The notes: generated from the sequence alone by a model not told the origin. 64,000 nucleotides of DNA from Halalkalicoccus jeotgali B3 (GCF_000196895.1 NC_014298.1:1-64000); one strand, 5' to 3'; counted from the stretch's first letter, positions 2,182 through 51,393 are shown. Translations and numbers: made by a program.

Positions 2182-2387
2182 ATAGTATATCTAACCGTAC
2201 CCACAAGTCGTCCGACAGACGAACACTGCGCGGAGGTGGCGCTGTTCACACGCGGCTACGGTAGCGTGGCGAGTGTTGTCCCATCGGTTTCTGTCGGGTA
2301 CGACGACCGCCTCGTCACCGGATCATGATCGAGTCGTTCTCGCTCGGGGGCACCGATGGTTCCGAACGCTTGCACTTCCTTGAACAG

Positions 2388-3149: not shown

Positions 3150-3327
3150 GGTGGATTCGGACACCCTATTCGTACCGGGATTCAGTACATAAAGAACAGG
3201 GGTTTTCGTATCGATGCGAAAAACAGCTGTTTTTCGCGTCCGTTTTGCCGCGGTGTTTTCATACGATATGCAGTCGTCAACAACGATAGACTCAGATCAT
3301 ACGTCTGTTTCGTCTAACCCCTAGAGA

Positions 3328-6822: not shown

Positions 6823-6937
6823 ATATATGGCTGAAACTGGGTGGAATATGTGCTTTTTGAGAGGGTGACCTGAGTGTTGCCGAATCGATGGCCGGTTCCA
6901 CACGTGAGTCGTCCGTAGCTAATGGGATGATGGACGA

Positions 6938-7477
6938 TCACGCCAGCGCATAGAGGACGAGGTTTCGAACTCCGGGGAGGAAACCGGCGAGCCCCGCTGC
7001 GAGAAAGAGAAGCCGCGTCCCGAGCGGCGTCGTTTCGCTGTCGGTGGCGACTACCCAGACCAGACCCGTTGCGAGACTCAGCTTGAGGACGACGAAGAGC
7101 CATCCGACGCCGATTATCGATGCGGTGGGGAGCGTCGCAGCGAGATTTAAGACGGCGCGTGAAAGCGGCACCTGCTCGGACACGGCGAGAATGTCGACGC
7201 CGACTGCCGTCGAAACCGCGTCAATCGCCTGTCCGAAGACGACGAACACACCCATCCAGCCAGCCTGTTTGGATACCGGTGGCGAGGCGCGATGGACAGC
7301 AACCCAGACCATGGCTGTGAGTGCAACCGCTCCGAGAACACTAACAGTAGGCCATAGGACGTGCACGTGGCCAACATCACTCAAAAGCGAGGATAGACAT
7401 AGAAGTCCTCCCACAGAGAGTGCCGCACCGGTGGCGAACCCCGTCGCTGCCCGCGTGCGAACACCACTCTGGCTCAT
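6938..7477 (-). CDS. DUF63-like membrane protein
   Basis: Polytopic membrane protein of 179 residues with about five predicted helices: residues 15-35, 43-62, 73-92, 118-140 and 153-172. The C-terminal half ('GWLFVVLKLSLATGLVWVVA', then 'LLFLAAGLAGFLPGVRNLV') resembles the end of archaeal DUF63 proteins, which are normally around 250-280 residues. This copy would therefore be a short relative. Its function is unknown. It lies between the methyltransferase and the lipoprotein on the same strand with small gaps, so it may be co-transcribed with the copper genes, but it carries no visible metal ligand motif. Confidence 0.55.
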   Translation of the reverse strand: MSQSGVRTRAATGFATGAALSVGGLLCLSSLLSDVGHVHVLWPTVSVLGAVALTAMVWVAVHRASPPVSKQAGWMGVFVVFGQAIDAVSTAVGVDILAVSEQVPLSRAVLNLAATLPTASIIGVGWLFVVLKLSLATGLVWVVATDSETTPLGTRLLFLAAGLAGFLPGVRNLVLYALA

Positions 7478-13539: not shown

Positions 13540-13644
13540 ATTGACTCTCATCGCAACCACTTTCGAACCATAAGTCTGCACAGGCCTGAGCCTTGAGTAT
13601 CATAAGAACAACCGCATTAAACGAGCATCACGTAGTTACTGGTG

Positions 13645-16275
<2,631 letters not shown>

Positions 16276-36426: not shown

Positions 36427-37164
36427 TTAATACAGATTCACCTCCACAGTGAGCTCTTCAGCCTCAAAGTGATACTCTGAGTATCTGGCTTCGTCTCTGG
36501 AGTCACTTCCGTGTATATTAGACTCCAGCCATATTTCGACAGTATCCATAGCAGCTCGCTGTAGATTGCTGATATATGATGTTGCTTTATCTTCGGAGTC
36601 GGCAGGGATATTGAGGGTCATATTGACGTCACGGATTGGAATTGCAGTATCTGAGTCAGACCTACTAATGTCGGCGGTCATCCTCGCTGAAATCACCGGT
36701 TGGCCAACTGACTGCGCCACCACAGGGGAGTGTTGAGTAGACATAACACTAAACATCTGCTTCTTTTTTTCTTCTTCCTCTTCTGGCGGAGTGTCCGGTG
36801 GCGATGGGGGTGATGGTGGAGAGGGATCTATCGGTTCCGGATGCGGTGGCCAGCCTGGATCTATTGGATCAAAGTCAGGGGGTACCGGTGGTCCTACCGG
36901 ATCTGTTGGATCTGGAAAATCAATTTCATCTGGCCAAGTTGGCCAACCCGGTGGAAAGAGATCCTCCCATCTACGCCTGTGGCGTCTTTGTGACTGCACT
37001 AGAACAGGATATGGAACAGGTACCGGCCGGGACCTTCTATTTTCAGTCGGTGAGGACATCCTTGAGAAGAGTTCTTTTGCTTCCTCCTGAGATAACTCCT
37101 GAATCAGTTGTAAAATATCTTTAATAGATTTGCTCTCAGTGTTTTCCGACGTTGACTCTGACAT
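36427..37164 (-). CDS. Proline-rich hypothetical protein
   Basis: A 245-residue protein of unknown family. Residues 10-40 form a helix ('SIKDILQLIQELSQEEAKELFSRM'). Residues 65-135 are extremely rich in Pro, Asp and Trp ('PPGWPTWPDEIDFPDPTDP', 'PPSPPSPPDTPPEEEEEKKK'). The last 100 residues look folded, beta-rich and acidic. No signal peptide or membrane helix is seen. The Pro-rich rod could act as a spacer between an N-terminal assembly helix and a C-terminal domain. It precedes the SprT-like gene on the same strand by about 260 bp. Confidence 0.65.
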   Translation of the reverse strand: MSESTSENTESKSIKDILQLIQELSQEEAKELFSRMSSPTENRRSRPVPVPYPVLVQSQRRHRRRWEDLFPPGWPTWPDEIDFPDPTDPVGPPVPPDFDPIDPGWPPHPEPIDPSPPSPPSPPDTPPEEEEEKKKQMFSVMSTQHSPVVAQSVGQPVISARMTADISRSDSDTAIPIRDVNMTLNIPADSEDKATSYISNLQRAAMDTVEIWLESNIHGSDSRDEARYSEYHFEAEELTVEVNLY

Positions 37165-37422: not shown

Positions 37423-37779
37423 CTACACTTCTTCAATCGAGGTCTCCCCACCACATTGCCCACAGAAATACTTCTCGGGTTGTTTCATGACTTCCGACCG
37501 TCGATATCGGGGGTCACGACTCTCACACGCTTTGCAGATCACCCAGTACTTCGGTTCGGCATACCGCTGACAATGACAATCCGTTTCCAGTGGTTCAACC
37601 CATTGTTTGAAACTCGACTCGTGGTCATCCTCACCGTCCTTATGATACTGCCAGGCGTGGATCAGTTCGTGGCAAACAACTCGAGAAAACTGCTCCCACC
37701 CGTACGCCTCGTAGGCGTCCCACAAGAGAGTGATCGTGATCTGCTCACTCTGGTCTGTCTTACTCGTGGGAGCCTCCAT
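37423..37779 (-). CDS. SprT-like zinc metalloprotease-fold protein
   Basis: A 118-residue SprT-family protein. 'VVCHELIHAWQYHKDGEDDHESSFKQW' carries the H-E-x2-H zinc site with a downstream His, and a C-terminal zinc ribbon has 'YWVICKACESR' and 'KYFCGQCGG'. Haloarchaeal members are often plasmid or virus encoded and relate to the Spartan/SprT group that degrades DNA-crosslinked proteins. It is shorter at the N-terminus than typical members (about 150-180 residues), but the catalytic core is complete. Confidence 0.82.
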   Translation of the reverse strand: MEAPTSKTDQSEQITITLLWDAYEAYGWEQFSRVVCHELIHAWQYHKDGEDDHESSFKQWVEPLETDCHCQRYAEPKYWVICKACESRDPRYRRSEVMKQPEKYFCGQCGGETSIEEV

Positions 37780-38155: not shown

Positions 38156-38662
38156 ATGTCTGAGGAATACGTAACGTCCGAAACCAACCTTCCGCCCGAG
38201 CCCGAGGGTAAGGAAATTACGCTCCAGATTAGCGATAAGGACACAAGAGAGATATTCAACACACGGGCCCGGATCAGTCGTAATCCTGACGCCCTTACCG
38301 ATCCTGCCCCACTGACTGTCGTTAAGGGACCCCATGAGAACAAAGAAGAAAAGTGGTATATCGAAATCCTCACAACTGACATTGAGTCTGAAAGCGTTGA
38401 TAGGAAACTCCTTCGGACGACACTGAAGGAGGTGAAGGACGATGCGAATATCATTAATACACGGTCTGACGAAGTGAAAACGTTGCTTCGCTATTTAGTT
38501 GAAACAGGCCAATATAGCTCTGTCTCGCAAGCAAGTCGGACGATTATGTTCGAATACCTCGCCGATACCTATCCGGAACTCGTAGACGAGTATGTCGATC
38601 TCAAGGTGGAACTCGAACATCAGGAATTATTAGATGCCAATCAGGAGAAACATGACGGTTGA
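38156..38662 (+). CDS. Hypothetical protein, possible ribbon-helix-helix regulator of the ubiD operon
   Basis: A 168-residue protein of unknown family. The N-terminal two-thirds is beta-rich ('KEITLQISDKDTREIFNTRARIS', 'KWYIEILTTDIESESVDRKLL'). The C-terminal 60 residues are helical, with 'VKTLLRYLVETGQYSSVSQASRTIMFEYLADTYPELVDEY', resembling the helix-turn-helix part of an RHH/CopG-like domain. It overlaps the UbiD start by 11 bp, so it is the first gene of a coupled operon. A regulatory or accessory role for the decarboxylase is inferred. Confidence 0.6.
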   Translation: MSEEYVTSETNLPPEPEGKEITLQISDKDTREIFNTRARISRNPDALTDPAPLTVVKGPHENKEEKWYIEILTTDIESESVDRKLLRTTLKEVKDDANIINTRSDEVKTLLRYLVETGQYSSVSQASRTIMFEYLADTYPELVDEYVDLKVELEHQELLDANQEKHDG

Positions 38663-40151
38663 TAGCTTGCGCAACTATCTACAGAGACTTGACGAGAAAA
38701 ACGACCTTATTGAGATTGAGGATCGGATATCATGGAACCTGGAGGCTAGTGCGTTGACAATGCTGGCGAACGAACAAGACCATGGAATACCCTTGTTCGA
38801 AGACGTCGACGGTATGCGATTGGTCGGAGATCCCTATCGTGGCAGTCAGCGACGGCCCTGGGATCGTATCGCGCAGGGTATCGATCTACCGCGGGACATT
38901 TCTCGCCAAGAATTTTATAGGGAGACAATTTCACGACTCCAGAATCCGCGCGATCCTGTGACGATTTCCTCGGAAGACGCCCCATGTAAGGAGATTACTC
39001 GCGTTGAGGACGAGGTCGACCTCCTTGAGTTTCCCTGGCCCTATATTCACGCTGGAGATGGTGGTCGCTATTCGAATCTCCATACACTGGTCGTTTCCGA
39101 TCCGGATTCGGATTGGATCGACTGGTCATATCATCGGGCGATGATGCACGACAACGAGACAGCAAGCGTGTTGTTGTTAGCCGGCGAGCAGACACCAAAT
39201 CTCTTCTACTACAAGTATGAACGTGAGGACAAACCGATGCCGGTCGCTATTGCCGTCGGTACCGAACCTGCCGTCCAGTATACCTCAGTAATGTGGATCC
39301 CTACCGGGCGGAGCGAGGCGGCCTTCGCTGGTGGCCTGAAGGAGTCGCCAATCGAATTAGTTCCGTGTGAAACAAACGACCTTCTAGTTCCGGCGACGGC
39401 TGAATTAATCATCGAGGGTGAGATTATCCCAAATATCCGCCTTGACGAGGGCCCGTTTGGGGATTATTTCGGCTATATGCACGGTCCACGGCGGTCAATG
39501 CCGACTCTACGGGTCACCGGAATCACTCATCGGAAACAGCCGATCATTCCATTCTGTGTCGAGGGGACAGGTGTCGGCTACACTGAGAACTCGACGAGTT
39601 CGATGGAAGTCGGCTGCGTCGGACCGGACGCGACTTTGGGCTTACAAGCCGGCGGGTTCGAGATTGATCAATGCGTTCCCTGGTCATCAACCCCGCGGGG
39701 TGCATACGTGGTCTCAACTGGAAACACGGATCCAGGATACCTCCACGAACTCGCGAACTTCATCTTCACTACATGGGGCATGTTGCACGTTGACTTCTTC
39801 GTGTTTGTCGACGCCGACATCGATCCGTTCGATCAGCGCGAGGTTCTCGAAGCACTCGTTTTACACGCAGATCCTGACAGCGACTTCCATCAGTTTGGCG
39901 TTGAGACGATGCCAAAGGTCCCATTGAACATCTACCAGACACCCAGCGAAAAGGGGAATGTCCAGACGGGAACCTCGAAAGCAAAGACAGCCAAAGCGTA
40001 CATCGACGCAACGAGAGGTAATGAGGACCTCGATACCAGTACAGTAGACAATGATCTGCAAAATTGGGCACGGTCCATACTTGAAGATGCAGGAGCAAAA
40101 CCTGATATGCTACCGTTTACCGACTCAGCACAAAGAGGGGGATCTCGATGA
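38652..40151 (+). CDS. UbiD-family decarboxylase
   Basis: A 499-residue UbiD-type (de)carboxylase, the full family length. These enzymes use prenylated FMN to decarboxylate or carboxylate aromatic or alpha,beta-unsaturated acids. Arg162 in 'YHRAMMHD' corresponds to the catalytic Arg of Fdc1, and Glu266 in 'DEGPFGDYFGY' to Glu277. The usual second Glu (Glu282) is Asp271 here. 'GTEPAVQYTSVMWIPTG' and 'EGTGVGYTENSTSSMEVGCVGPDATL' are other conserved blocks. ATG 38652 was chosen over 38634 because relatives start at this point. It overlaps the next gene by 4 bp. No UbiX prenyltransferase is in the window. Confidence 0.9.
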   Translation: MTVDSLRNYLQRLDEKNDLIEIEDRISWNLEASALTMLANEQDHGIPLFEDVDGMRLVGDPYRGSQRRPWDRIAQGIDLPRDISRQEFYRETISRLQNPRDPVTISSEDAPCKEITRVEDEVDLLEFPWPYIHAGDGGRYSNLHTLVVSDPDSDWIDWSYHRAMMHDNETASVLLLAGEQTPNLFYYKYEREDKPMPVAIAVGTEPAVQYTSVMWIPTGRSEAAFAGGLKESPIELVPCETNDLLVPATAELIIEGEIIPNIRLDEGPFGDYFGYMHGPRRSMPTLRVTGITHRKQPIIPFCVEGTGVGYTENSTSSMEVGCVGPDATLGLQAGGFEIDQCVPWSSTPRGAYVVSTGNTDPGYLHELANFIFTTWGMLHVDFFVFVDADIDPFDQREVLEALVLHADPDSDFHQFGVETMPKVPLNIYQTPSEKGNVQTGTSKAKTAKAYIDATRGNEDLDTSTVDNDLQNWARSILEDAGAKPDMLPFTDSAQRGGSR

Positions 40152-41539
40152 TAACCTTCCGAGACCATCTTCGAATTCTCGACGCTAACGAGGACCTGTT
40201 GACGGTAGCTGAACACGTCCACTGGGACGAGGAAACAGCAGCCGTCGCGGTAGAGGCGCTCAAACACGACTGTAAAGGGCTTCAATTCACATCGACGTCC
40301 GGCGAAGTCGACTTAGCCAGCGGCATATACGCAGGGCACGCTCAGATTTCCAGTCGCACCCATCAACCATGGCGCCGGCTCAAGAAAGCGCTTGACCGCG
40401 AAGGGGACGATTACGTACAGCTTCTTGAGGCAGTCTCTCGACGAAACACACGCGCACCCGATGATATCATCCTTGAGGAGCCGGCTGCAACGATCAAGTC
40501 CTCAAGTAATCCGGCTTCGTTAGGACTTCCGACCGTTGAGCCGAATGGTCGACAACAGATCACGCTTGGTTTGATCGCCGTTGAGCACGAAGGGATGACA
40601 TCGTGGGCACCGGTTCGTGGAGCAATTCACCGCCGATCCCAACTACGACTCTCAGTTCCTCAACCGTTCATCGAGTGGTGTGGCGATAACCGCCAAGCAA
40701 GTATTTCTCTCGGCATCGCTGCAGCGCCGCTGGTCACTGCATTGCAGGGGTGGACATTAGATCGAACTACGTCGGCTGTTCCGAAACTAGCGGCTGCCTT
40801 AGGTGAGACGGCCGTCGTGGATATCGATGGACGAACAGTTCCTGCAGATGCAGAAGTACGTCTCGACGGTTCGATCATCGACGTCAACGATGGAGTCTCT
40901 GGGCCAATTGCGGTCTGGGAGCGGGGATGCGAGACGGTGGGCGTGACTGTTGAGGTTGATGCCATTGCAACACGTGAGGATCCCGTCGTCCCCTTCATTC
41001 CCCTCGGAGCACCGCTAACCGACGATCTACACCTGACCGCACTTGTCGAGGCTGCGGAGCTTTACCGACGTATCAACGGTTACTGGGGTGTTTCGCCGGT
41101 ATCATGGATTCGGCTACCCGTCGAGGGGCGGCTTGGGCTCTGTCTCGTCTCCAGCGAGATCCTCTACTCGGGATTCGAGTGGCAGTTGGCCAACGTCTTG
41201 TTTTCGTTCTCGGACTTCTTCGACAAGGTTCTGATACTGGACGAGCACACTGAACCCGACGACCTCGCACGGGCGCTTGATGATATGTGGGTGAAAGCCC
41301 ATCCGAGCAATGACTGGATCTTCAGCGATCCCAATGCACCTGCCGCCAGCATCCCGCGATACCGTCGGGATGGTCAAACAGGATCACGCCTCTACATCAA
41401 CGCGACTTGGGACCCCCAATGGGACGAGGAGTACATTGCCCCCCGAGTGACGTTCGAAAATTCCTATCCAGAGGACGTTCGAGAGCTATCCCTCGAGAAG
41501 TGGGACAATCTCGATTTGAAAGAGAAATCCAATGACTAA
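40148..41539 (+). CDS. UbiD-like protein lacking the active-site loop
   Basis: A 463-residue protein that aligns in overall layout with the preceding UbiD: start 'FRDHLRILDANEDLLTVAEHVHWD', 'HQPWRRLKKALDREGDDY', and the C-terminal 'GWQLANVLF'-like 'WQLANVLFSFSDFFDKVLILDEH' matching 'LANFIFTTWGMLHVDFF'. The catalytic loop E-G-P-F-G-[DE] is replaced by 'NDGVSGPIAVWE', and the 'R-x-M' segment by 'GAIHRRSQLRLSV'. It is therefore probably a non-catalytic subunit of a heteromeric decarboxylase. It is translationally coupled (ATGA) to the UbiD gene and overlaps the MBL gene by 8 bp. Confidence 0.8.
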   Translation: MITFRDHLRILDANEDLLTVAEHVHWDEETAAVAVEALKHDCKGLQFTSTSGEVDLASGIYAGHAQISSRTHQPWRRLKKALDREGDDYVQLLEAVSRRNTRAPDDIILEEPAATIKSSSNPASLGLPTVEPNGRQQITLGLIAVEHEGMTSWAPVRGAIHRRSQLRLSVPQPFIEWCGDNRQASISLGIAAAPLVTALQGWTLDRTTSAVPKLAAALGETAVVDIDGRTVPADAEVRLDGSIIDVNDGVSGPIAVWERGCETVGVTVEVDAIATREDPVVPFIPLGAPLTDDLHLTALVEAAELYRRINGYWGVSPVSWIRLPVEGRLGLCLVSSEILYSGFEWQLANVLFSFSDFFDKVLILDEHTEPDDLARALDDMWVKAHPSNDWIFSDPNAPAASIPRYRRDGQTGSRLYINATWDPQWDEEYIAPRVTFENSYPEDVRELSLEKWDNLDLKEKSND

Positions 41540-42473
41540 ACTGATCCGAATTCCGGTCGATACGGGAACGGCTGAAGGAGTCAATAGCGCATATCACTTC
41601 CCTGATCGGGGCGTTATTGTCGATCCAGGGCCGCCGACTGAGACAGCCTGGACCGCACTAACTGAGGCGATCGAACCTACCCTCTCGTCCGTCGAGCACG
41701 TGGTCGTAACACACTGGCACTCGGATCACGCCGGTCTCGCCTGCCGAGTAGCCGAAGCGGCAGATGCAACGCTCCATATGCATTCCTCAGACGCACCTCT
41801 TGTCGGCGAGTACGCAGCCGCACGCCAGCGTCGCCTTGATCGGGACATCGCCACCCTTCGACGGTGGGGCGTTCCTAAGCTGCGACGAGAAGCCCTGCTT
41901 GATTCGGACTCCCCATCACCGATACCCGAGAGGTATCCAATAACAACCCACGAGGACGGTGAGACGATCGCCGGTCTAGAATTCGTCCATACACCCGGCC
42001 ACACACTGGGACATAGCTCATTCGCCATTGACGACACGCTGTTGCTCGGCGATCTCCTCCTCCCGACGTACACGCCGAACGTCGGTGGTAGCGATACGCG
42101 CACCAACGATCCATTAGCGGCGTATCTCACTTCGATCGATCGAGTAAACGCCCGATTCGATGAGGGCGAACCAGGCCATGGGACGACGATGAACGTAACG
42201 AGGGCCGTCGACGAGGTCCGAACGCACCACTGTGAACGCGCCCGAGCGGCCTTTCACGCGCTGTCGACAGTCGATGATTCCACGCCGTGGAACGTCGCTC
42301 GTGACCTCTTCGGCGAAATGCGCGGTATCCACGCGAAGTTTGGCGCTGGCGAGGCCGCCGCGCACCTTGACCGGCTGGCTGCACTGGACGTCGTCGAGCG
42401 GACGAACAGAGAGTCGATTTGCTACCGACCGTGCGTCGAGAATTACCCGTCCGATTTGAACTTGACACCGTAG
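41532..42473 (+). CDS. MBL-fold metallo-hydrolase
   Basis: A 313-residue metallo-beta-lactamase-fold hydrolase. The metal motif 'THWHSDHAG' (H-x-H-x-D-H), 'HTPGHTLGHSSF' and 'GDLLL' give a di-metal site, and a second-domain 'EPGHG' contains a further His. The C-terminal 90 residues form a winged-helix-like region found in LACTB2-type members. Such enzymes hydrolyse thioesters or lactones, or act as glyoxalase II. As the last gene of the ubiD operon it may hydrolyse a CoA thioester product. Its 3' end overlaps the convergent DUF35-fusion gene by 31 bp. Confidence 0.88.
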   Translation: MTKLIRIPVDTGTAEGVNSAYHFPDRGVIVDPGPPTETAWTALTEAIEPTLSSVEHVVVTHWHSDHAGLACRVAEAADATLHMHSSDAPLVGEYAAARQRRLDRDIATLRRWGVPKLRREALLDSDSPSPIPERYPITTHEDGETIAGLEFVHTPGHTLGHSSFAIDDTLLLGDLLLPTYTPNVGGSDTRTNDPLAAYLTSIDRVNARFDEGEPGHGTTMNVTRAVDEVRTHHCERARAAFHALSTVDDSTPWNVARDLFGEMRGIHAKFGAGEAAAHLDRLAALDVVERTNRESICYRPCVENYPSDLNLTP

Positions 42474-43852
42474 CGCGGTACCCCTTCTTGCGTGTAGATC
42501 CGCCGGATCGTCGCTCGGACGGTGTCACCGACCGCGACCGTTTTAGAATCGATATCCGTTAATTGTGCGGGCAGCGTCGCCTCCCCACTACCGGCTTCGA
42601 GAGCGACGATGGCGACCGTGTAGGCACCTTCCTGCTGCTGTAATTCGGCGAACTCCGGCGGGGCACCGCCCTGGCCGATGACCGTTAAGGCTCGGATCGT
42701 CCCTGTTCGAGATGCTTCGATCCGCTTGAACTCGACTCGCGAGTGACACTCCTGACAGGCCCCCCGCGGCGGGAACGTGATTCCGCCACAATCGGGACAC
42801 TCACCTGCGATTAGGCGGTAGCGCTGGTCGAGCGATCCTTGCCAGTTCGGGAGGCTCACATTCGCGCCGCCGCCTGCGACCTCGCTCTCAACAACGTAGC
42901 CACGCTTGCGGAGGTACGTCGTATAATCGATCGACTCCCCCCTGTCGAGCTCGTCGATCCCCGCGACCGGGAGACCGCCCTCAAGGCTGACCGCAACTGC
43001 GCTGCCGCCGCCGAAGAAGCCGCCAACTGTCGTCTCTCTCTCACTGGCCTCGGCGAGCGCGGCGAGCAGGCCAATTGGGACCGACGCCGTTCCGGCGTCG
43101 CCGATTCGATCCACGACGGTCCCGGCCGTCACAGCTTCGTTCGAGAAGGCTAGGTCGCCTGCGACCCGATACGGGAACTTCCCGTCGCGCTGGTGGAGCG
43201 CCGCAGCGGTCGCCTCGCTCGCGTCGACCGCCAGAGCCGTCACCGCCTCCGTCACGGCCTCACGAACAGCCGTCCGCTCGTAGGTTGTGATCCCCAGTGA
43301 GTTGACCTCGCGTTCGTCCCGTGGCCGGAAACGCACGCCAGGTGTTTCGTCGTTATGCCAGGCGACGTCCCGGATCGGGACCGTCGCATCGTCGTCGATT
43401 ATGAATGCCGCCGCACCGGCCCCGAAGGCGTGGTCAGTATTGGCGGGGTCGCCCTCAGGACAGTCGGCCGCGACGACGAGTGCCGGGCCGTCGGTGTCGA
43501 GTGCACGCGCGAGCGCTTCTCCGCCAGCGGCGGTGTGTTGGGTCGAAATCGAGCCGGCGACGTCCTCGGGTAGCGCGAGCATCCGGACGAACCGCGAAAC
43601 GAAATCGCCCTCGGCCATCGGCGGGGTCGTTGTCGCGACGGCAATGAGGGCGATCGCCGAGCGGTCGGCGGACGCGTTCCCGAGGGCGCGCTCGGCCGCT
43701 GTGACGGCCATCGTTAGCGCGTCCTCGTCAGCTGCGGGGACCGCCTTCCGATTGATCCCGCCTGCATCGGCGTGGCCCCACGCCGCGGCCGTCTCCTCGG
43801 TCGAAAGCCGGAACTGGGGGATATAGATCCCGCCGGCGTCGATCCCTCTCAT
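42443..43852 (-). CDS. Fusion of HMG-CoA-synthase-like domain and DUF35 zinc-ribbon/OB-fold
   Basis: A 469-residue two-part protein. Residues 1-320 have the fold of 3-ketoacyl/HMG-CoA synthases ('AGGIYIPQFRLSTEETAAAWG', 'HAFGAGAAAFIIDD'). At the place of the catalytic Cys it reads 'SISTQHTAAGGEAL', so the nucleophile appears absent. Residues 340-469 are a DUF35 module: a zinc ribbon 'GECPDCGGITFPPRGACQECHS' followed by an OB fold. DUF35 proteins bind acyl-CoA and partner with SCP2-type thiolases. It overlaps the thiolase by 4 bp (ATGA), so the two are expected to form a complex. Probably a structural or acyl-CoA-binding subunit. Confidence 0.82.
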   Translation of the reverse strand: MRGIDAGGIYIPQFRLSTEETAAAWGHADAGGINRKAVPAADEDALTMAVTAAERALGNASADRSAIALIAVATTTPPMAEGDFVSRFVRMLALPEDVAGSISTQHTAAGGEALARALDTDGPALVVAADCPEGDPANTDHAFGAGAAAFIIDDDATVPIRDVAWHNDETPGVRFRPRDEREVNSLGITTYERTAVREAVTEAVTALAVDASEATAAALHQRDGKFPYRVAGDLAFSNEAVTAGTVVDRIGDAGTASVPIGLLAALAEASERETTVGGFFGGGSAVAVSLEGGLPVAGIDELDRGESIDYTTYLRKRGYVVESEVAGGGANVSLPNWQGSLDQRYRLIAGECPDCGGITFPPRGACQECHSRVEFKRIEASRTGTIRALTVIGQGGAPPEFAELQQQEGAYTVAIVALEAGSGEATLPAQLTDIDSKTVAVGDTVRATIRRIYTQEGVPRYGVKFKSDG

Positions 43853-45018
43853 GCTGCTTCCTCCCGCTCGAAAACGTGGACGGTCACCCCGCCGCCCGAA
43901 CCGCCGACGTTGTGCGCCAGTCCATAGCGCGGCTCCTCGATCTGGACGTGGGCCTTGTCGCGGAACTGCTCGAACGCCTCGACGATCTGTCCCGTTCCGG
44001 TAGCACCGATCGGGTGGCCTTTGGATTTGAGTCCGCCGGAGGTGTTGGTTGGCAACTCGCCGTCGGGGTCAGTGACGCCCTCCCTGAGGAGGCGTCCGGC
44101 CTCGCCGTGCTCGCAAAAGCCTAGATCCTCATAGGCCAGCAGTTCGGCGATGGCGAAGCAGTCGTGGACCTCCGCGAAATCGAGATCTTCGGGGCCGATT
44201 CCGGCCTCCTCGTAGGCGGCCTCGCCGGCCTGAACGCTTGCGGGGATGCTCGTCAACGTGCCCCGCTGGAAGAGGCCCACCCGCCCGCTCGCCGCACCCG
44301 CGCCTGCGACGCGGATCAATTCATCGCCGTGCTCGCGGGCGACCTCCTCGCTTGCGACAAGTACCGCGCTCGCGCCGTCCGTGGTCGGACAGCAGTGATA
44401 GAGGTTGAGCGGGTCGGCGACGGAGGGTGCCGAGACGGCGTCCTCAAGTGAGCACTCGAAACCGAGGTGAGCCTTGGGGTTCTTCGCACCGTTGGCGTGG
44501 TTCTTTACCGCAACTCGAGAGAGGTCCTCGACGGTCGTGTCGTACTTCTCGAGATGGGCACTTGCCATTTGGGCATAAACGCCGGCAAAGGTGGTTCCAC
44601 TGATGCGCTCCCACTCGGTCTCGCCGCTGACGCCGAGCCACCACTTGGTCTGGTCGGCGCTCGTGTCCGTCATCACCTCGTAGCCGCCGGCCAGTGCCAC
44701 GTCGACCATGCCTGATCGCACGGCGGTAACGGCCTGACGGAAGGCGTAGCCGCTGGCCGCACAGGCGTTTTCCACCCGCGTGGTCGGGACTCCGTGCAAG
44801 CCGATGTGTTCGGTTACTGCCGGCCCCGAGAGGCCGATCTGCCGGCCCCCAACGCCGAGCGTCCCCAGATACGCCTCGTCGATCGCCTCTGTCGAGAGGT
44901 CTCCGCTGACGCTGTCGAGAGCCGTCTCGAAGGCGCTCTCGAACAGTGAGAGGTAGGTCTCCTCGGGAAAGGAGCCGAACGAGGACTGTCCGGCTCCGAT
45001 CACGTATGCATCTCGCAT
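43849..45018 (-). CDS. SCP2-type thiolase / acyl-CoA lyase
   Basis: A 389-residue thiolase-fold enzyme. 'VENACAASG' carries the nucleophilic Cys, 'HDCFAIAE' and 'GHPIGATGTGQIVE' the His motifs, and 'GGSGGGVTVHVFE' closes the fold. It lacks the degradative thiolase C-x-G-x-G end, as in SCP2/Ltp2-type proteins that act as thiolases or retro-aldolases with a DUF35 partner. That partner follows directly. In this region it could perform the last chain-shortening step of an aromatic or branched side-chain pathway. A GGAGGT sequence abuts the ATG. Confidence 0.88.
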   Translation of the reverse strand: MRDAYVIGAGQSSFGSFPEETYLSLFESAFETALDSVSGDLSTEAIDEAYLGTLGVGGRQIGLSGPAVTEHIGLHGVPTTRVENACAASGYAFRQAVTAVRSGMVDVALAGGYEVMTDTSADQTKWWLGVSGETEWERISGTTFAGVYAQMASAHLEKYDTTVEDLSRVAVKNHANGAKNPKAHLGFECSLEDAVSAPSVADPLNLYHCCPTTDGASAVLVASEEVAREHGDELIRVAGAGAASGRVGLFQRGTLTSIPASVQAGEAAYEEAGIGPEDLDFAEVHDCFAIAELLAYEDLGFCEHGEAGRLLREGVTDPDGELPTNTSGGLKSKGHPIGATGTGQIVEAFEQFRDKAHVQIEEPRYGLAHNVGGSGGGVTVHVFEREEAA

Positions 45019-45082: not shown

Positions 45083-45300
45083 TCAGGGCTCGCTCATCCG
45101 GAGGACAGGCTTGATCACCTCGCCGGCCTCTTGTTCCTCGACCGCCCGCTCGATGTCCTCGAAGTCGTAGTAGCTGACGAGTTTGTCGAACGGGAACTTC
45201 CCGGCGCGATAGAGGTCGATCAGATCTGGGATGAACAGGTCGGGCGTCGAGTTGCCCTCGATGACCCCCTGGACCCCGCCGAGAAGGACGTCGGCCACTT
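45083..45300 (-). pseudogene. C-terminal fragment of a zinc-dependent alcohol dehydrogenase
   Basis: About 72 codons reading 'MADVLLGGVQGVIEGNSTP' and 'DLIDLYRAGKFPFDKLVSYY' then 'DFEDIERAVEEQEAGEVIKP', the end of a medium-chain Zn alcohol dehydrogenase. The catalytic zinc ligands and NAD-binding motif would lie in the missing N-terminal three-quarters. The coding stops abruptly near 45300, where an aldehyde dehydrogenase fragment begins on the other strand. Confidence 0.8.
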
Positions 45301-45651
45301 CTTGAGCCGACGGTGTTCACCGACGTCACTAACGATATGACGATCACCCGAGCGGAGATATTCGGACCCGTGCTGTCGATGATCGAGTTCGCCGACCATG
45401 AGGTGGCCATCGAGATCGCCAACGATTCGCCGTACGGCCTGATGGCCGGGATCTGGACCATGGATCTGAAGACTGCTCACTCAGTCGCCGATCACCTCGA
45501 TTACGGGATGGTGAGCGTCAACGAGTTCCCAGTCACCCAGCCCCAGACGCCTTTCGGCGGATTCAAGCAGAGTGGCCTCGGACGCGAACAGGGCACCGAG
45601 GCAATCCACGAATACACTCAGACCAAGAACGTCAACGTCAATCTGGAGTAG
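45301..45651 (+). pseudogene. C-terminal fragment of an aldehyde dehydrogenase
   Basis: About 116 codons beginning 'LEPTVFTDVTNDMTI' and continuing with 'AEIFGPVLSMIEF', 'NDSPYGLMAGIWT' and 'PFGGFKQSGLGRE', the conserved C-terminal third of NAD(P)-dependent aldehyde dehydrogenases. The catalytic Cys and cofactor-binding regions are absent. It is joined within a few bases of 45300 to the alcohol dehydrogenase fragment, in opposite orientation. It is of the general ALDH type, not specifically PaaZ. Confidence 0.82.
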
Positions 45652-45729
45652 CATCGAGGCCTCCTCGGAGCACGTTACGTCACCTTTTCAGAGAACATTT
45701 ATGATGGCGTGCCACGCCTATCGAACAGT

Positions 45730-46884
45730 ATGAGCCTCATCGAGAGCGCACTCTCCGAAAAGCACCGTGACATTCGAGATCGAGCGACGGCGTTCGCTAC
45801 CGACATCGTCGAACCGGAGGCTGAACGTATCGAACGGGTAGACGAGTTCCCCCGCGAGGTGATCAATGAAGCGGGCGAGTATGGTCTGCTTGGGATCATG
45901 GTCCCTGAAGAGTATGGCGGTGAGGGGTCTGATTTTCTCTCCTACTGTTTAGCAGTCGAGCAGATCGCCGAGGTCAGCGGCGCGGTGGCCGAGACGATCC
46001 AAGGCCATACATTCGCGATGCTTCCGATCCTCAACTTCGGCACCGACGAACAGAGAAAGGAATACCTCGAACCGATGGTGCAGGGTGAGCGCGTCGGCGC
46101 GATGCTACTGACCGAACCCGGCGCGGGTAGTTCCCCGACGGAACTCGAGACGGTCGCCGAGGCCGATGGAGAGGACTACTCGATCAGCGGCGAGAAGTCC
46201 TTCGGGACGAACGCCGGCGTCGCGGATGTCCACCTCGTTGTCGCTCGCAAGCGACCGGCTCCCGAGGAGGGTCATGGCGTGAGTGTCTTCCTCGTCCCCA
46301 GCGTCGACGACGGTGAGGGGTTTGCATTCGAGCGAAAGGAGTTCATGGGAATGCGCGGGCACATTACTGGGGACTCGACGTTCGATGATGTCCGGGTTGA
46401 CGAATCGGCGTTACTCGGCGAGGTCGGCGAGGGCTTTCGAATCGCGATGGGGACTATCGATATGGCCCGCACGGGATTAGGCGCGATCGGGACCGGAATC
46501 GCCCGCGGCGCGTTCGGCGAAGCCATCGACTATGCGGGCGCGCGCGATCAGGGTGGGCAGGCGGTCGGCCAGTACCAAGCAGTGCAGGTGCTCGTCGCTG
46601 ACATGGACGCCCGACTGGACGGGGCGCGACACCTCGTCTACGATTCGGCGAAGGCGATTGCCGACGGGGAGCCAAGCACGCGGAAGTCGAGCAAGGCGAA
46701 GTACGTCGCGAGCGAGGCCGCGGAATTCGTCACCCGCAACGCAATCCAGGTCCACGGTGGAAAGGGGTACAGAAAAGATCTGCCGCTCGAACGCTTTTAC
46801 CGGGACGCGAAAATTCTGAGTATTATCGGCGGAACAAACGAAATACAGAAGACGACAGTCGCTGGTGAAGCGCTAAACCTCTAG
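45730..46884 (+). CDS. Acyl-CoA dehydrogenase
   Basis: A 384-residue flavin acyl-CoA dehydrogenase. 'LTEPGAGSSPTELET' is the substrate/FAD signature and 'GGKGYRKDLPLERFYRDAKILSIIGGTNEIQ' the C-terminal FAD motif. The catalytic Glu of short- and medium-chain enzymes (Y-E-G-T) is Gly here (IIGGT), and the alternative isovaleryl-CoA dehydrogenase position reads 'IDMARTG' with Ala instead of Glu, so the base is not obvious. It should introduce the double bond in side-chain beta-oxidation. The 3' end overlaps the convergent hydratase by 4 bp. Full length. Confidence 0.9.
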   Translation: MSLIESALSEKHRDIRDRATAFATDIVEPEAERIERVDEFPREVINEAGEYGLLGIMVPEEYGGEGSDFLSYCLAVEQIAEVSGAVAETIQGHTFAMLPILNFGTDEQRKEYLEPMVQGERVGAMLLTEPGAGSSPTELETVAEADGEDYSISGEKSFGTNAGVADVHLVVARKRPAPEEGHGVSVFLVPSVDDGEGFAFERKEFMGMRGHITGDSTFDDVRVDESALLGEVGEGFRIAMGTIDMARTGLGAIGTGIARGAFGEAIDYAGARDQGGQAVGQYQAVQVLVADMDARLDGARHLVYDSAKAIADGEPSTRKSSKAKYVASEAAEFVTRNAIQVHGGKGYRKDLPLERFYRDAKILSIIGGTNEIQKTTVAGEALNL

Positions 46885-47720
46885 TCGCTCGGCTCGCCCG
46901 GTTCTTTCTCGCCGAGTTCGACGCCGAGGAAGTCGGGGTCGTGATCGCCGAGGAACGCGTTGACACCTTCTTTCTCAACATCGGAGCCGAGCAGGCGGTT
47001 CTGGAGTTCGCGCTCATGGGACAGCGCGTCCCATAGGGGCATCTCAAGGCCCTCATTGACAGCCAGCTTATTGTGGCCGACGGCCATGTGCGATTTCTGA
47101 GCGATCTGTTGAGCGAACTCGCGGGCAGCATCCTCAATCTCCTCGGGCGGGTGGAGTTCGTCGAAGATGCCCCGATCGAGAGCCTCTTCGGGCGTGATCG
47201 TCTCGCCGGTGATCATCATCTTGAGTGCGGTTGAGCGGTCAATGTATCGGGGAAGCAGCTGAGTCCCTGCCTCGCCCGCGATGAGGCCCAGGTGAATCTC
47301 CGGCATGCCGACGTTGTAGTTGTCGTCATTGCCGGCATATCGGAAGTCACAGGCGAGCGCGAGTTCCAGCCCCCCACCCATGCAGTGACCGTTTACCATA
47401 GCGATGAAGATGGTATCGGTCGTCCGCATCTTCATGATGATCTCTTTGCTCGTCTGGCTCGCGTAGCCGACCTGTTTACCAGATTTGTCTTGAAGCTCCT
47501 GGATGTCGAAGCCCGTTGAGAAAAACTTCTCGTTGGCGCTTCCAAAGAGTGCGACTCGAACGTCCTCGTCGAACCGAACTGTCTCAACGACCCGCTGCAG
47601 TTCGAGGAGCACGTCGATGTTGTGGGCGTTAGCCGGCGGCCGATCAATGCGGATGGTGCCGATGTGGTCCTCCAGGTCGGTCTGGAAGAACTCCAGATCC
47701 AGCTCGCTAAACGCTTTCAT
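46881..47720 (-). CDS. Enoyl-CoA hydratase/isomerase family protein
   Basis: A 279-residue crotonase-fold enzyme. The oxyanion-hole and first Glu motif is 'NGHCMGGGLELALACD', and the second Glu lies in 'MPEIHLGLIAGEAGTQLLPR', so hydratase activity is plausible. The C-terminal 'GVNAFLGDHDPDFLG' is typical. It lies 122 bp downstream of the Paa zinc-ribbon gene on the same strand and may belong to that transcript. ATG 47720 gives 'MKAFSELDLEFF'. Confidence 0.88.
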   Translation of the reverse strand: MKAFSELDLEFFQTDLEDHIGTIRIDRPPANAHNIDVLLELQRVVETVRFDEDVRVALFGSANEKFFSTGFDIQELQDKSGKQVGYASQTSKEIIMKMRTTDTIFIAMVNGHCMGGGLELALACDFRYAGNDDNYNVGMPEIHLGLIAGEAGTQLLPRYIDRSTALKMMITGETITPEEALDRGIFDELHPPEEIEDAAREFAQQIAQKSHMAVGHNKLAVNEGLEMPLWDALSHERELQNRLLGSDVEKEGVNAFLGDHDPDFLGVELGEKEPGEPSD

Positions 47721-47842
47721 ACACACCGTTCATCATCGGTACTGCATAAGTAATTTTCTATCACGATCGATCGAGATGCTTCACCACTGTCGCTACTCGG
47801 AGGTGACTCTGAGTCGGCGAACCACGAAACGTGCGAGAACGA

Positions 47843-48021: not shown

Positions 48022-48786
48022 TCAGTCCATGGCGAACAGCTCGTTCTTAGTACCCCGAAGTTGTCTGGCATCGGTCTCGCTGATCGATCCGCCTCCGACG
48101 CGCCGTCTAACTTCGTCCCACTCCTCACGGGCCGGCGCATCCCAGTCGACATTGTCGAGAGAAACGGCAGTCCCGGCGAACAGGTCGCGGTAGTGATCCG
48201 CGAATGCGTCGCGAATTTCGGCGACCGAGCGGTCGGTGAACTCAGCTTGGGTTAGGGGGTCCGCCTCGTCGTCGTACTCCGCGGGCCCAATGAACGCCAA
48301 CGCCTGAGGTAGTGTCGTCTCCAACGTCGCCTGGATCGTCTCCGGATCTTCTTCAGCCAGCGCCTCGAGGCGGGCGTCGTGGTACTCCAAGTGGAAGTAC
48401 TCGTCTTCACCCATCTTCGTAATTAGGCCCGTCATGTCCTCACGGTCGATGGCGTCGATCATGTACCACGACGCTCGGTCCGCGGGAGCGATCGAGGCAA
48501 CATACGCCGGCCAGTCGCCCTCGATCCGATCCAGACAGGCGGCATTGTTGAACTCCTCCGGGTCGCGTTGGCCGTTCAGCCACTCCTTCTCGCGGCCCTG
48601 TGATTGGAGTTCGTTGACGAACTGCCGGAAGTGTCCGATCTCTTCTTGAGCGGCGCTAGCCCCACCGATGTCGTCCTCGAGGGATGGTCCCGCGAGACTC
48701 CACTGGGCATTGCGATGCCCGAGGATCAGTTTCGTATCAGCGATCGCCTGGACGTAATCGGCTGCTGGCTCAGGCCAGTCACTCAT
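48022..48786 (-). CDS. paaC: Phenylacetyl-CoA epoxidase subunit PaaC
   Basis: A 254-residue ferritin-like subunit. 'AAQEEIGHFRQFVNELQ' and 'MGEDEYFHLEYHDARLEAL' carry ExxH-type motifs. In E. coli PaaC is the structural partner of PaaA in the (AC)2 heterodimer. 'LILGHRNAQWSLAGPSLEDDIGGASAAQ' is characteristic of the subunit. ATG 48786 was chosen; GTG 48792 is in frame. It overlaps paaB by 8 bp and is followed by the zinc-ribbon gene. Confidence 0.9.
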   Translation of the reverse strand: MSDWPEPAADYVQAIADTKLILGHRNAQWSLAGPSLEDDIGGASAAQEEIGHFRQFVNELQSQGREKEWLNGQRDPEEFNNAACLDRIEGDWPAYVASIAPADRASWYMIDAIDREDMTGLITKMGEDEYFHLEYHDARLEALAEEDPETIQATLETTLPQALAFIGPAEYDDEADPLTQAEFTDRSVAEIRDAFADHYRDLFAGTAVSLDNVDWDAPAREEWDEVRRRVGGGSISETDARQLRGTKNELFAMD

Positions 48787-48988
48787 CGACACTCACCCGC
48801 ATTGTGGGCCGCTCGCCTGTCACCTCGATCAGGTCCTCAGCGCGGACGACCGCGAGGTAGTCCCAGTCCTCCTCGTCGAACGTGTTATGAGCGTACATCC
48901 TCGCGAGGCGATCGCTCTGTGCCCGCACGTTACCGATGTGGAGTGTTTCGTCGCCCTGGTTGATCCGTGCGAATACTTCGTACTTCAT
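48779..48988 (-). CDS. paaB: Phenylacetyl-CoA epoxidase subunit PaaB
   Basis: A 69-residue PaaB. 'KYEVFARINQGDETLHIGNVRAQSDRLARMYAHNTFDEEDWDYLAVVR' matches the family, which folds as a small alpha/beta bridge between two AC heterodimers. It is shorter than the bacterial protein (about 95 residues). It starts 2 bp after the paaD stop and overlaps paaC, so stoichiometric co-translation is likely. Confidence 0.9.
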   Translation of the reverse strand: MKYEVFARINQGDETLHIGNVRAQSDRLARMYAHNTFDEEDWDYLAVVRAEDLIEVTGERPTMRVSVDE

Positions 48989-48990
48989 GG

Positions 48991-49386
48991 TTAGAGGCTA
49001 ATTCCCGCTTCGCGCATCTTCTCTCTGACTGCTGGGGTCAGCATCTCCTTGGACCAAACCGGGTCCCAGACGACTTCGACGTCTACGGTGTCGACACCTT
49101 CGAGCACCGTGAGACAGCTCTCGATATCGTTCTGTATCATATCGTAGGCCGGACAGCCCATACACGGGTAGGTCATCTCGACGAAAACCGTCCCGTCTTC
49201 GGCCTCGATATCGTAGATCATCGCCATTTCGACCAGGCTGACAGGGATGTGTGGATCGGGAATCTCGTCGACGACGTCCCAGAGGTACTCCTCAAAGGCG
49301 CTCGCGTCCGCTCGGCGTCGTTCGACGAACTCGCTTGCGTGTGCGGGGCCGGACGAGCTGTCGGTTCGCTGGTGTGCGCTCGACAT
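48991..49386 (-). CDS. paaD: MIP18-family protein PaaD (iron-sulfur/metal assembly factor)
   Basis: A 131-residue protein. The MIP18 (DUF59) core is 'DEIPDPHIPVSLVEMAMIYDIEAEDGTVFVEMTYPCMGCPAYDMIQNDI', with the family Cys pair in 'PCMGCPA', and ends 'VWDPVWSKEMLTPAVREKMREAGI'. In the Paa system this protein supports cluster or metal-centre maturation. The Cys ribbon found at the C-terminus of bacterial PaaD is missing and is encoded separately at 47843-48016. It begins one base after the paaA stop. Confidence 0.9.
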   Translation of the reverse strand: MSSAHQRTDSSSGPAHASEFVERRRADASAFEEYLWDVVDEIPDPHIPVSLVEMAMIYDIEAEDGTVFVEMTYPCMGCPAYDMIQNDIESCLTVLEGVDTVDVEVVWDPVWSKEMLTPAVREKMREAGISL

Positions 49387-49387
49387 C

Positions 49388-50308
49388 TCAGACCTCGACC
49401 TCGACAGTACCCGACTGGATGAGGTCGACGTACTTCTCGTTGGCCGGTCCGCGCGAGCGCCAGCGGTCCATGACGTCGGACCAGGAGATGGGCTCGTCGT
49501 AGCGCCATTCCTTGTTCGCCGCGTCGAACGCGATCGGCATGTCGTACTCGATGACGTACTCCTCGCGTTCCTCGTCGTAGTGAGCCGGCACGTCTAGATC
49601 CAGTTCGTTCATGAGCGGCAGGGACCGCGAGAGCCAGTCCTGGCGGAGTTCGTCATTGGACTTACCCTTGATTCGGTACTCAAGCTGGTCGTCGTGTTTT
49701 TTCTTGTCATCTGGCAGCCCGAACCACTCGATTCCGATCGGGAACATCCAGTCGATAGCCTCCTGAAGCTTCGCGCGGGTCTTGTCGTTCTTGTTCGCGA
49801 GACGGCGCATCCACGTTTCACCGTGACGGAGGTGGAATTGCTCTTCCTTGTTAACCTTCGTTAGCGCGCGCTTCCAAGGCGCATACGAAGTGTTCTCGTG
49901 GATGTCGCCCAGTAGAACGATGCCCGCTCGATCAAACAGTCCGTGGGCTGTCACGAGTTCGGCGAAGTTCTCGATGTGCTGGTCGAAGCCGTACGTGTTG
50001 CGGAACTCGTGGGGCTCGCGCCCATAGATTAGCTCCTCGCGGCTCTCGCCGAGGTCCTCGAGTAGTCGGTAGGCGATGTGGCCGTGGCCGAGTTCGTCCT
50101 GAATCACGCTGATACACGAGGCCCGCGCGTTGGGCGAGGGGGCGTTGAGCGACTGTTCGTAGTACGCTGGCGCACTCATTAGCTCCGTATCGCCTGAGAC
50201 CGTCAGGATCTGCTTTAGAGCTTTCTCGTAGCCTTCGGTCATCTCGTCGGTCGATTCGATCATCTTCCCGTTCTGGACCTGCTGTTTGAGTTGTTTCTCG
50301 GTTGGCAT
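49388..50308 (-). CDS. paaA: Phenylacetyl-CoA epoxidase catalytic subunit PaaA
   Basis: A 306-residue di-iron oxygenase subunit. Iron-binding motifs 'ISVIQDELGHGHIAYRLLED' and 'VNKEEQFHLRHGETWMRRL' are intact, as are 'EEYVIEYD' and 'PISWSDVMDRWRSRGP'. It would insert one O2 atom into an aryl-CoA ring to form the epoxide, with electrons from a ferredoxin-type partner. ATG 50308 gives 'MPTEKQLKQQ'. It is first in the operon paaA-paaD-paaB-paaC-ribbon with gaps or overlaps under 10 bp. A TATA-like 'AATTATAG' and a 21-bp palindrome lie upstream. Confidence 0.93.
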   Translation of the reverse strand: MPTEKQLKQQVQNGKMIESTDEMTEGYEKALKQILTVSGDTELMSAPAYYEQSLNAPSPNARASCISVIQDELGHGHIAYRLLEDLGESREELIYGREPHEFRNTYGFDQHIENFAELVTAHGLFDRAGIVLLGDIHENTSYAPWKRALTKVNKEEQFHLRHGETWMRRLANKNDKTRAKLQEAIDWMFPIGIEWFGLPDDKKKHDDQLEYRIKGKSNDELRQDWLSRSLPLMNELDLDVPAHYDEEREEYVIEYDMPIAFDAANKEWRYDEPISWSDVMDRWRSRGPANEKYVDLIQSGTVEVEV

Positions 50309-50355
50309 GGTTCGCCTGTACACTCCGTTGTCGGGCCATCACTATAATTGTTTTC

Positions 50356-50611: not shown

Positions 50612-51106
50612 ATGACGTACAACCTACGACACAGTACGGCCGAAGACGGTGAGGAGATCCTCGAGCTCTGGCACGGGTTCACCGAACATCTCTCGAAGTA
50701 CGACGATCGGTACCAGCACAAGGAGGACGCTGACGACCGCTGGCTCCGATACTTCGAGAACCAGCTCGTCGACTCGAAATACGGGACCGTGATCGTCGCC
50801 GAAGATGAAGAGACCGGCGAACTGATCGGAGTCCTTGAGGCTCGCGTGATGGGCGACCATCCTATCTTCCGACTCAAGGACCACGGCTATATCAACGGCC
50901 ACTATGTCCGGGAGGATCACTGGAACAATGGGGTGGGAACCGCGCTGATCGAGGAGGCCCACGAGTGGTTCGCCGACTCGCCGCGCGACATTGATTTCTA
51001 CCGAATAGATGTGGTTGACGGCGATGAGAAGGCAGAAGAAGTGTACGAAAGTCTTGGCTTCGACCCCGTCGAACACGTCTACGAGCGCTCCATCGAGGAG
51101 CAGTGA
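50612..51106 (+). CDS. GNAT-family N-acetyltransferase
   Basis: A 164-residue GNAT enzyme. 'VREDHWNNGVGTALIEEAHEWF' is motif A (pyrophosphate-binding R/Q-x2-G-x-G/A variant 'NNGVGTA'), and 'IDVVDGDEKAEEVYESLGFDPVEHVYERSI' is the usual C-terminal end. Substrate unknown. It overlaps the GTG start of the ferredoxin by 4 bp, and is divergent from paaA, with the 21-bp palindrome in the shared 303-bp promoter region. Why an acetyltransferase belongs with the Paa genes is unclear. Confidence 0.85.
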   Translation: MTYNLRHSTAEDGEEILELWHGFTEHLSKYDDRYQHKEDADDRWLRYFENQLVDSKYGTVIVAEDEETGELIGVLEARVMGDHPIFRLKDHGYINGHYVREDHWNNGVGTALIEEAHEWFADSPRDIDFYRIDVVDGDEKAEEVYESLGFDPVEHVYERSIEEQ

Positions 51107-51111
51107 GTCAG

Positions 51112-51393
51112 ATGGTCGAAACCTACACCATCGAATTCGTCAACGAAGGGGTAACTCTCGAAGTAGCCGAGAATGAGTCAATTCTCGAGGCGGCAGAGAA
51201 TGCTGGTCTCGATCTCCCGTATCAGTGTCGAATGGGAGTCTGTGGCGTCTGTAGCGGCATGTGTATGGAGGGCGAGGTCGATCAACTGGAGGGGATGTTC
51301 CTCTCGGAAAGCGAGAAAGAGGAGGGCTACGCTCTCACCTGCATCGCGAAACCGCGTTCGGACATGCGAATTCGAACCAACGAGAGTCCCTGA
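51112..51393 (+). CDS. Plant-type [2Fe-2S] ferredoxin
   Basis: A 93-residue ferredoxin. Three cluster ligands are in 'CRMGVCGVC' (C-x4-C-x2-C) and the fourth in 'ALTCIAKP'. In bacteria PaaE carries such a domain fused to an FAD/NAD reductase; here the ferredoxin is free-standing, so it is a likely electron donor to PaaA with a separate, unlinked reductase. ATG 51112 is chosen; GTG 51103, overlapping the preceding stop, is an alternative. Its adjacency to the paa operon promoter supports the role. Confidence 0.88.
   Translation: MVETYTIEFVNEGVTLEVAENESILEAAENAGLDLPYQCRMGVCGVCSGMCMEGEVDQLEGMFLSESEKEEGYALTCIAKPRSDMRIRTNESP

Follow-up and report, generated by a model that had tools for sequence, protein, structure and literature searches.

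The flavin prenyltransferase UbiX is thought to make the flavin cofactor of UbiD enzymes, prenylated flavin mononucleotide (prFMN). For UbiD an "obligate requirement for ubiX coexpression" has been stated (PMC10865409). How, then, does a UbiD-family protein persist in haloarchaea in which no UbiX is detected, and why is it accompanied there by a paralogue that has lost the catalytic acids? These questions are raised by four overlapping genes on the plus strand (38156-42473) of a 64,000-nucleotide stretch from Halalkalicoccus jeotgali B3 (NC_014298.1:1-64000), the whole of which we refer to as the window. The first gene encodes P3 (38156-38662, 168 amino acids), an orphan protein. It is followed by D (38652-40151, 499 amino acids), a UbiD-family carboxylase or decarboxylase subunit, by Q (40148-41539, 463 amino acids), a UbiD-fold partner lacking the acids of the catalytic triad and the metal-site glutamate, and by a metallo-beta-lactamase (MBL)-fold hydrolase (41532-42473, 313 amino acids), an optional member. 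The D frame has a possible start at 38634, with homologue alignments beginning at 38652, and the D-Q junction is an ATGA overlap. All four frames and their overlaps were found where an earlier reading of the DNA alone (the sequence-only reading) had placed them.

We propose that P3, D and Q form one functional unit, a heteromeric UbiD-type carboxylase or decarboxylase of haloarchaea whose flavin is not made by UbiX, a reading to which we give a probability of roughly 0.6.

P3, D and Q occur together across haloarchaea

We surveyed 392 genomes of the haloarchaeal order, obtained 83 copies of Q from 81 of them, and compared these with all PF01977 matches. D lies directly upstream on the same strand for 82 of the 83 Q genes, the remaining pair (G029) being split by a contig end between the two genes, and every D-type UbiD detected in the 392 genomes was accompanied by Q. 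The suggestion that the two proteins form a stable active/inactive pair, which would have fared badly had D commonly occurred alone, is supported by all 83 cases. The junction itself is also conserved: among 45 measured, 40 show the identical 4-bp overlap and four overlap by 1 bp. A P3 profile searched over 190 genomes matched all 39 partner genomes among them (E < 1e-58) and returned only fragments or weak partial matches elsewhere. Taken together, the gene order (83/83), the junction overlap (40/45) and the presence of P3 (39/39) make the arrangement more than chance, and because P3 is found in every partner genome checked and essentially nowhere else, we treat P3-D-Q as a trio. One second D-Q copy (G266, L070) has no P3 directly upstream.

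The partner operon is spread over seven families and 23 genera, and the closest named record to Q is that of Halalkalicoccus paucihalophilus (97%). In a phylum-wide sample Q was found only inside the order, with one weak general UbiD match outside it; in plasmid records the sole non-haloarchaeal match was Azoarcus ppcA, other bacteria not having been searched for Q. Several of the relatives' copies sit on plasmids. Plasmid carriage would also fit L063, where an orc1/cdc6 replication gene (6292-7476) immediately precedes the trio. Two genomes (G325 and G266) carry two D-Q pairs each, in different gene neighbourhoods.

P3 has no match in Pfam, NCBIfam or the Protein Data Bank. An alignment of 31 members shows an invariant GPHE motif in the N-terminal half and, by eye, a C-terminal half resembling a ribbon-helix-helix fold, for which a model match was obtained in one member (ParD, E 0.097, weak). 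The sequence-only reading had described P3 as a small putative DNA-binding protein overlapping D. The overlap stands; a role as DNA-binding regulator fits less well, since P3 is as strictly tied to D-Q as D is to Q, and may for this reason be a subunit or assembly factor instead. We nevertheless hold it possible, at somewhat less than even chances, that P3 regulates transcription of the operon as a ribbon-helix-helix protein and takes no part in the enzyme, as the C-terminal resemblance, the ParD match and short partial matches in two genomes that span only the C-terminal half would suggest; the invariant GPHE motif of the other half, and the fact that P3 overlaps D and heads the unit in every class of neighbourhood, speak against it.

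D keeps the UbiD active site and Q has lost it

Domain content, fold and triad all place D in the UbiD family. Its three Pfam domains score above their cut-offs (PF20695 (UbiD_N), 40.0 bits; PF01977, 215.3 bits, E 6.5e-64; PF20696 (UbiD_C), 50.4 bits), and both the catalytic arginine and the E-G-P-F-G-D loop noted from the sequence alone are present, as Arg162 in 'WSYHRAM' and as 'DEGPFGD'. We aligned 58 D and 49 Q sequences with 19 UbiDs of UbiX-bearing haloarchaea, Escherichia coli UbiD and Aspergillus niger Fdc1, whose numbering is used below. Arg173, Glu277, Asp282 and Glu233 are kept in 58/58 D sequences, such that the Glu-Arg-Glu/Asp catalytic network is invariant. AlphaFold models of D and Q were built from alignments of the window proteins and their relatives, and the D model shows a complete UbiD fold with Z scores of 41 to HudA and VdcC (for VdcC 7ae4, Z 41.4, root-mean-square deviation 2.3 over 418 residues). 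Conservation in D is high in both the C-terminal domain (0.82) and the flavin domain (0.79).

The metal site of D is altered. Of Asn168, His191 and Glu233, which we take to be the classical metal-site residues of UbiD, Glu233 is kept, Asn168 is found in 1/58 sequences and no histidine lies at or near position 191. These changes would fit altered cofactor binding, but are only suggestive, because two of the 19 UbiX-linked haloarchaeal UbiDs also lack both Asn168 and Glu233, having Gly168 and Lys233 instead. Azoarcus UbiD carries the same two residues, and the metal site was dropped as proof of prFMN loss. The Gly168/Lys233 proteins (L092, L101 and L105:10057-11403) constitute a second kind of UbiX-linked UbiD.

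Q presents a different picture. Its UbiD_C domain is above the cut-off (3e-11, 43.9 bits) and its UbiD_N domain just below the gathering score (3.8e-5), while only a trace of the middle, catalytic domain can be detected, far under threshold (E 0.059). The earlier description of a second UbiD that keeps the fold without the loop agrees with the model, a complete UbiD fold (Z 37.7, root-mean-square deviation 3.0 over 356 residues to HmfF 6h6x), and with the 'VSGPIAVWE' that stands where active UbiDs carry the loop. Glutamate occurs at position 277 in only 7/49 Q sequences, position 282 is proline or arginine in 39/49, position 233 is valine, proline or alanine, and Asn168 is also lost in nearly all orthologues; Arg173 survives in 35/49. 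With four of the site's residues (Glu277, Glu282, Glu233 and Asn168) gone from nearly all orthologues, Q does not appear to hold a complete prFMN site, which is what the proposed inactive member of the pair calls for. In public annotation the label 'UbiD family decarboxylase' is given to D and Q alike (for example NC_013744 437700-439082), although Q lacks the catalytic acids.

What is conserved in Q lies mainly in the C-terminal oligomerisation domain, with a mean conservation of 0.77 and 34% of positions at 95% or above; the corresponding values for its flavin domain are 0.52 and 7%. Such a distribution would be expected of a partner whose assembly surface has been retained while its chemistry was lost. 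In a maximum-likelihood tree, D and Q each form one clade and together stand apart from the other tested UbiDs (95/88), consistent with an ancient duplication in which Q arose from D, although the long branches call for caution.

Two other accounts of Q may be weighed against this evidence. Loss of the catalytic residues and low similarity to active UbiDs are what a decaying duplicate without function would show, but every listed orthologue, including those of only 40% identity, has an intact reading frame, many C-domain residues are invariant and the pairing holds in 83/83 cases. We consequently reject Q as a pseudogene and regard functionless decay as next to inconceivable. Alternatively, D and Q might be two separate homo-oligomeric enzymes of one pathway, Q having acquired a new activity; Trp153, Pro155, Trp257 and Glu258 are invariant in Q near the former site, and Q, given these residues of its own, may have a different activity. 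The poor conservation of its flavin domain relative to its C-domain, and the invariable co-occurrence of D and Q, make this account unlikely in our view.

Genomes with the trio lack UbiX

The genome of the window (98.6% complete) contains one UbiD. No UbiX was detected in it with TIGR00421 or, at E up to 10, with PF02441, whose sole match was rejected as a UbiX candidate because it is CoaBC; a query with one haloarchaeal UbiX protein, weak evidence alone as a single query, also came back empty. The remaining 80 partner genomes have exactly one PF02441 match each, always in a frame of at least 383 amino acids, the size of CoaBC, these matches being judged by frame length only. UbiX (TIGR00421) was found in 34 of the 392 genomes, and UbiD in 116, comprising the 81 partner genomes, the 34 with UbiX and one 72%-complete genome. 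UbiX is accordingly present in 0/81 partner genomes and 34/35 other UbiD genomes (Fisher 1e-28). When UbiX and the partner are compared without conditioning on UbiD, seven coincidences are expected under independence and none was observed (P 3e-4). Four families (f4, f5, f8 and f13) hold both partner and UbiX genomes, never the same genome, and all nine UbiD-bearing control genomes have UbiX. In the control Haloferax volcanii, neither the UbiD nor the UbiX model gave a match. That UbiX was overlooked through weakness of the model is unlikely, given that the window's own genome was queried three ways and TIGR00421 matches strongly in 34 genomes.

The sequence-only reading had assumed a prFMN enzyme. 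The intact triad of D argues for prFMN-like chemistry; the usual source of prFMN is missing, TIGR00421 being absent from all 81 partner genomes. It follows from the absence of UbiX that D either is supplied with prFMN in some way not yet known or uses a different cofactor. We judge the odds to be level that this is a UbiD lineage without UbiX, with a cofactor not made by that enzyme, in which the dead UbiD paralogue and P3 would supply what was lost. Candidates for that cofactor would be an unmodified flavin, a flavin with another modification, or prFMN made by an enzyme not yet known.

The main competing account is that D is an ordinary prFMN UbiD, supplied by a prenyltransferase that is unrelated to UbiX or undetectable as such, with Q and P3 aiding cofactor loading or maturation. 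It would readily explain the full triad of D and has precedents in the accessory proteins VdcD and LpdD (PMC8379154, PMC10865409). Against it stand the CoaBC-sized frame that holds the only UbiX-superfamily member of partner genomes and the changes at Asn168 and His191; further, we know of no flavin prenyltransferase unrelated to UbiX. We therefore give this account a minority share of the probability, well above that of two separate enzymes but below even. More than 80 haloarchaeal operons that keep the catalytic network and never occur with UbiX make the rule of an obligate UbiX-UbiD association testable, and point either to an alternative pathway for prFMN synthesis or to UbiD chemistry that does not use this cofactor.

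A proposed heteromeric unit in CoA-dependent catabolism

A heteromer is the best reading of the strict D-Q pairing combined with the lack of a complete prFMN site in Q. In the unit that we propose, D would be the catalytic subunit, with its Glu-Arg-Asp network next to the flavin, and would decarboxylate or carboxylate an aromatic or alpha,beta-unsaturated (conjugated) carboxylic acid. Q would derive from a D-like ancestor and have lost its own active site; its pairing with D would be mediated by the C-terminal oligomerisation domain, which is conserved. By analogy with known dead paralogues, Q may act as a structural or allosteric 'prozyme'-like partner that sets the open or closed state or cofactor entry. 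P3 would be the third obligate component, whether subunit, assembly factor or dedicated regulator, and the flavin cofactor of D would come from a source other than UbiX. The unit is predicted to feed CoA-dependent catabolism, namely phenylacetyl-CoA epoxidation in the window and other acyl-CoA pathways elsewhere.

Several points weigh against this proposal. Operon partners in a fixed order need not bind each other, and the D-Q complex is predicted from sequence comparison; of the heteromeric decarboxylase already suggested by the sequence-only reading, the pairing and the active-site loss in Q hold up, while the physical complex keeps the standing of a prediction. The invariant residues of Q near its former site could serve a function of their own. 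The full triad of D argues for continued prFMN-like chemistry, which sits uneasily with the absence of UbiX, and the metal-site changes of D are not unique to it. Finally, the UbiX statistics overstate the evidence, because the genomes are related and not independent.

Genomic context of the trio

The 'aryl-CoA' neighbours mentioned by the sequence-only reading can be identified as a phenylacetyl-CoA epoxidase (paa) cluster, which the trio borders. It includes, on the minus strand, genes for a PaaC-like epoxidase subunit (48022-48792; PF05138, 1.4e-19), a PaaD-like protein with an FeS assembly domain (48991-49386; PF01883, 5.7e-17), a PaaA-like subunit that served as the anchor of our linkage test (49388-50323; PF05138, 5e-59) and an AMP-binding acyl- or aryl-CoA ligase (51863-53518; PF00501, 4e-85), together with a plus-strand 2Fe-2S ferredoxin (51103-51393; PF00111, 2e-20). 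Enoyl-CoA hydratases (one, an enoyl-CoA hydratase/isomerase, at 46881-47726, minus strand; PF00378, 3.9e-51), a 3-hydroxyacyl-CoA dehydrogenase, a thiolase-family protein (43849-45018, minus strand; PF22691, 7e-43), an acyl-CoA dehydrogenase (45709-46884, plus strand; PF00441, PF02771 and PF02770) and a branched-chain-type ABC transporter also belong to it.

Across the 392 genomes, Q lies within 12.2 kb of 38 of the 39 paaA genes of at least 72% identity. The exception is a 77%-complete genome (G132, contig C39, 1461-6132) in which P3 is broken into two pieces and neither D nor Q was detected; the trio there has decayed or been cut by the contig end. A paaA gene with one in-frame TAG stop was seen in another genome (G029, contig C16, 13997-14923). 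The phenylacetate route in Halobacteria is described as always partial (PMC13186573), and the tight link between the trio and paa genes suggests an unassigned step in haloarchaeal phenylacetate degradation.

The trio also occurs without paaA, in 43 further genomes. The examples considered contain either an acetate-CoA-ligase-like gene, an acyl-CoA dehydrogenase, a biotin carboxylase, a carboxyltransferase resembling the alpha subunit of methylmalonyl-CoA decarboxylase and a MaoC hydratase, or a CoA ligase with an ABC transporter and a thiolase. No single carboxylic acid is common to these contexts; CoA ligases and acyl-CoA enzymes are, and the shared theme of the trio neighbourhoods is the CoA-dependent breakdown of carboxylic acids.

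The MBL protein is a clear member of its family (Lactamase_B, PF00753, 61.8 bits against a cut-off of 22.7, E 1.1e-16), with an HWHSDH sequence that fits the HxHxDH motif. Its gene is mostly present where the trio adjoins paa genes and is absent near the trio in many relatives. Of the four-gene order, P3-D-Q is therefore kept in other haloarchaea and the hydrolase is no fixed fourth member; for the same reason, its supposed removal of CoA is unsupported and has to be treated as a guess.

Downstream of the hydrolase, a 469-amino-acid protein on the minus strand (42443-43852) has a C-terminal ChsH2-type zinc ribbon and OB fold (PF12172 and PF01796); by eye its N-terminal part resembles HMG-CoA synthase, with no match there to a thiolase or synthase model. 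An aldehyde dehydrogenase reduced to its last 117 or so residues abuts an opposite-strand remnant resembling an alcohol dehydrogenase (45083-45651). About 1.46 kb is absent near position 45273 relative to H. paucihalophilus (L032), through a genuine deletion or an assembly fault. The window starts with DDE transposase and serine resolvase genes (190-3164), and a heavy-metal P-type ATPase with HMA domains lies at 13642-16275. Upstream of P3, a 245-amino-acid protein that is proline-rich in its central part and matches no Pfam family (36427-37164) adjoins a short SprT-like frame (37423-37779).

Comparison with known systems

D shares the three-domain fold, the Glu-Arg-Asp network and the Glu233 equivalent with the canonical UbiD/UbiX enzymes Fdc1, HudA, HmfF and E. 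coli UbiD. It differs from them in residing in a genome without UbiX, in its changed Asn168 and His191, and in its obligate association with a triad-less paralogue and P3.

Complexes with more than one UbiD subunit are already known or proposed, as exemplified by phenylphosphate carboxylase PpcABCD and the naphthalene carboxylase of culture N47. PpcABCD resembles the trio in combining two UbiD-like and small subunits in one operon, and Q matches the PpcA model weakly (1.7e-9). The identification of D and Q as phenylphosphate carboxylase is nonetheless rejected, with D scoring 153.5 bits against a cut-off of 564.6 for PpcA and 111.1 against 468.95 for PpcB, and Q scoring 36.8 and 18.5 bits, far under the same cut-offs. 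When PpcA and PpcB of Azoarcus KH32C were added to the alignment and the residue comparison repeated, both were found to keep Arg173, Glu277 and Glu282, unlike Q; moreover, the ppc genes of that organism are followed closely by a gene for UbiX, which was not detected in trio genomes. For the N47 enzyme, an anaerobic polycyclic aromatic hydrocarbon carboxylase of a sulfate reducer, several UbiD-like subunits in one cluster and a proposed 750-kDa complex are reported; the portion of that source considered here makes no mention of a dead subunit (PMC12016498).

The operon of vanillate decarboxylase VdcC has UbiX, unlike the trio genomes. VdcC, itself a UbiD subunit, requires the partner protein VdcD for its activation (PMC8379154), and small accessory proteins are established for both VdcC and LpdC (PMC8379154, PMC10865409). 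VdcD is a small, unrelated protein, whereas Q is a full-length UbiD paralogue. Phthaloyl-CoA decarboxylase, which has a UbiD fold and acts on an aromatic CoA ester, matches D (Z 34) and Q (Z 29) in structure, but is distant from D in sequence (phmmer 1.5e-8), and a CoA-ester substrate is not implied for D.

The nearest mechanistic analogy to D and Q comes from an unrelated enzyme family, that of S-adenosylmethionine decarboxylase (AdoMetDC). In trypanosomatids this enzyme has been shown experimentally to be activated by a catalytically dead paralogue, the prozyme (PMC5201418). No account of UbiD in haloarchaea, or of a UbiD paired with a dead paralogue, turned up in the open-access literature that we searched. 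Nor did these papers describe an obligate triad-less paralogue in UbiX-free genomes, and a partnership with a dead paralogue would, as far as we could find, be the first in the UbiD family.

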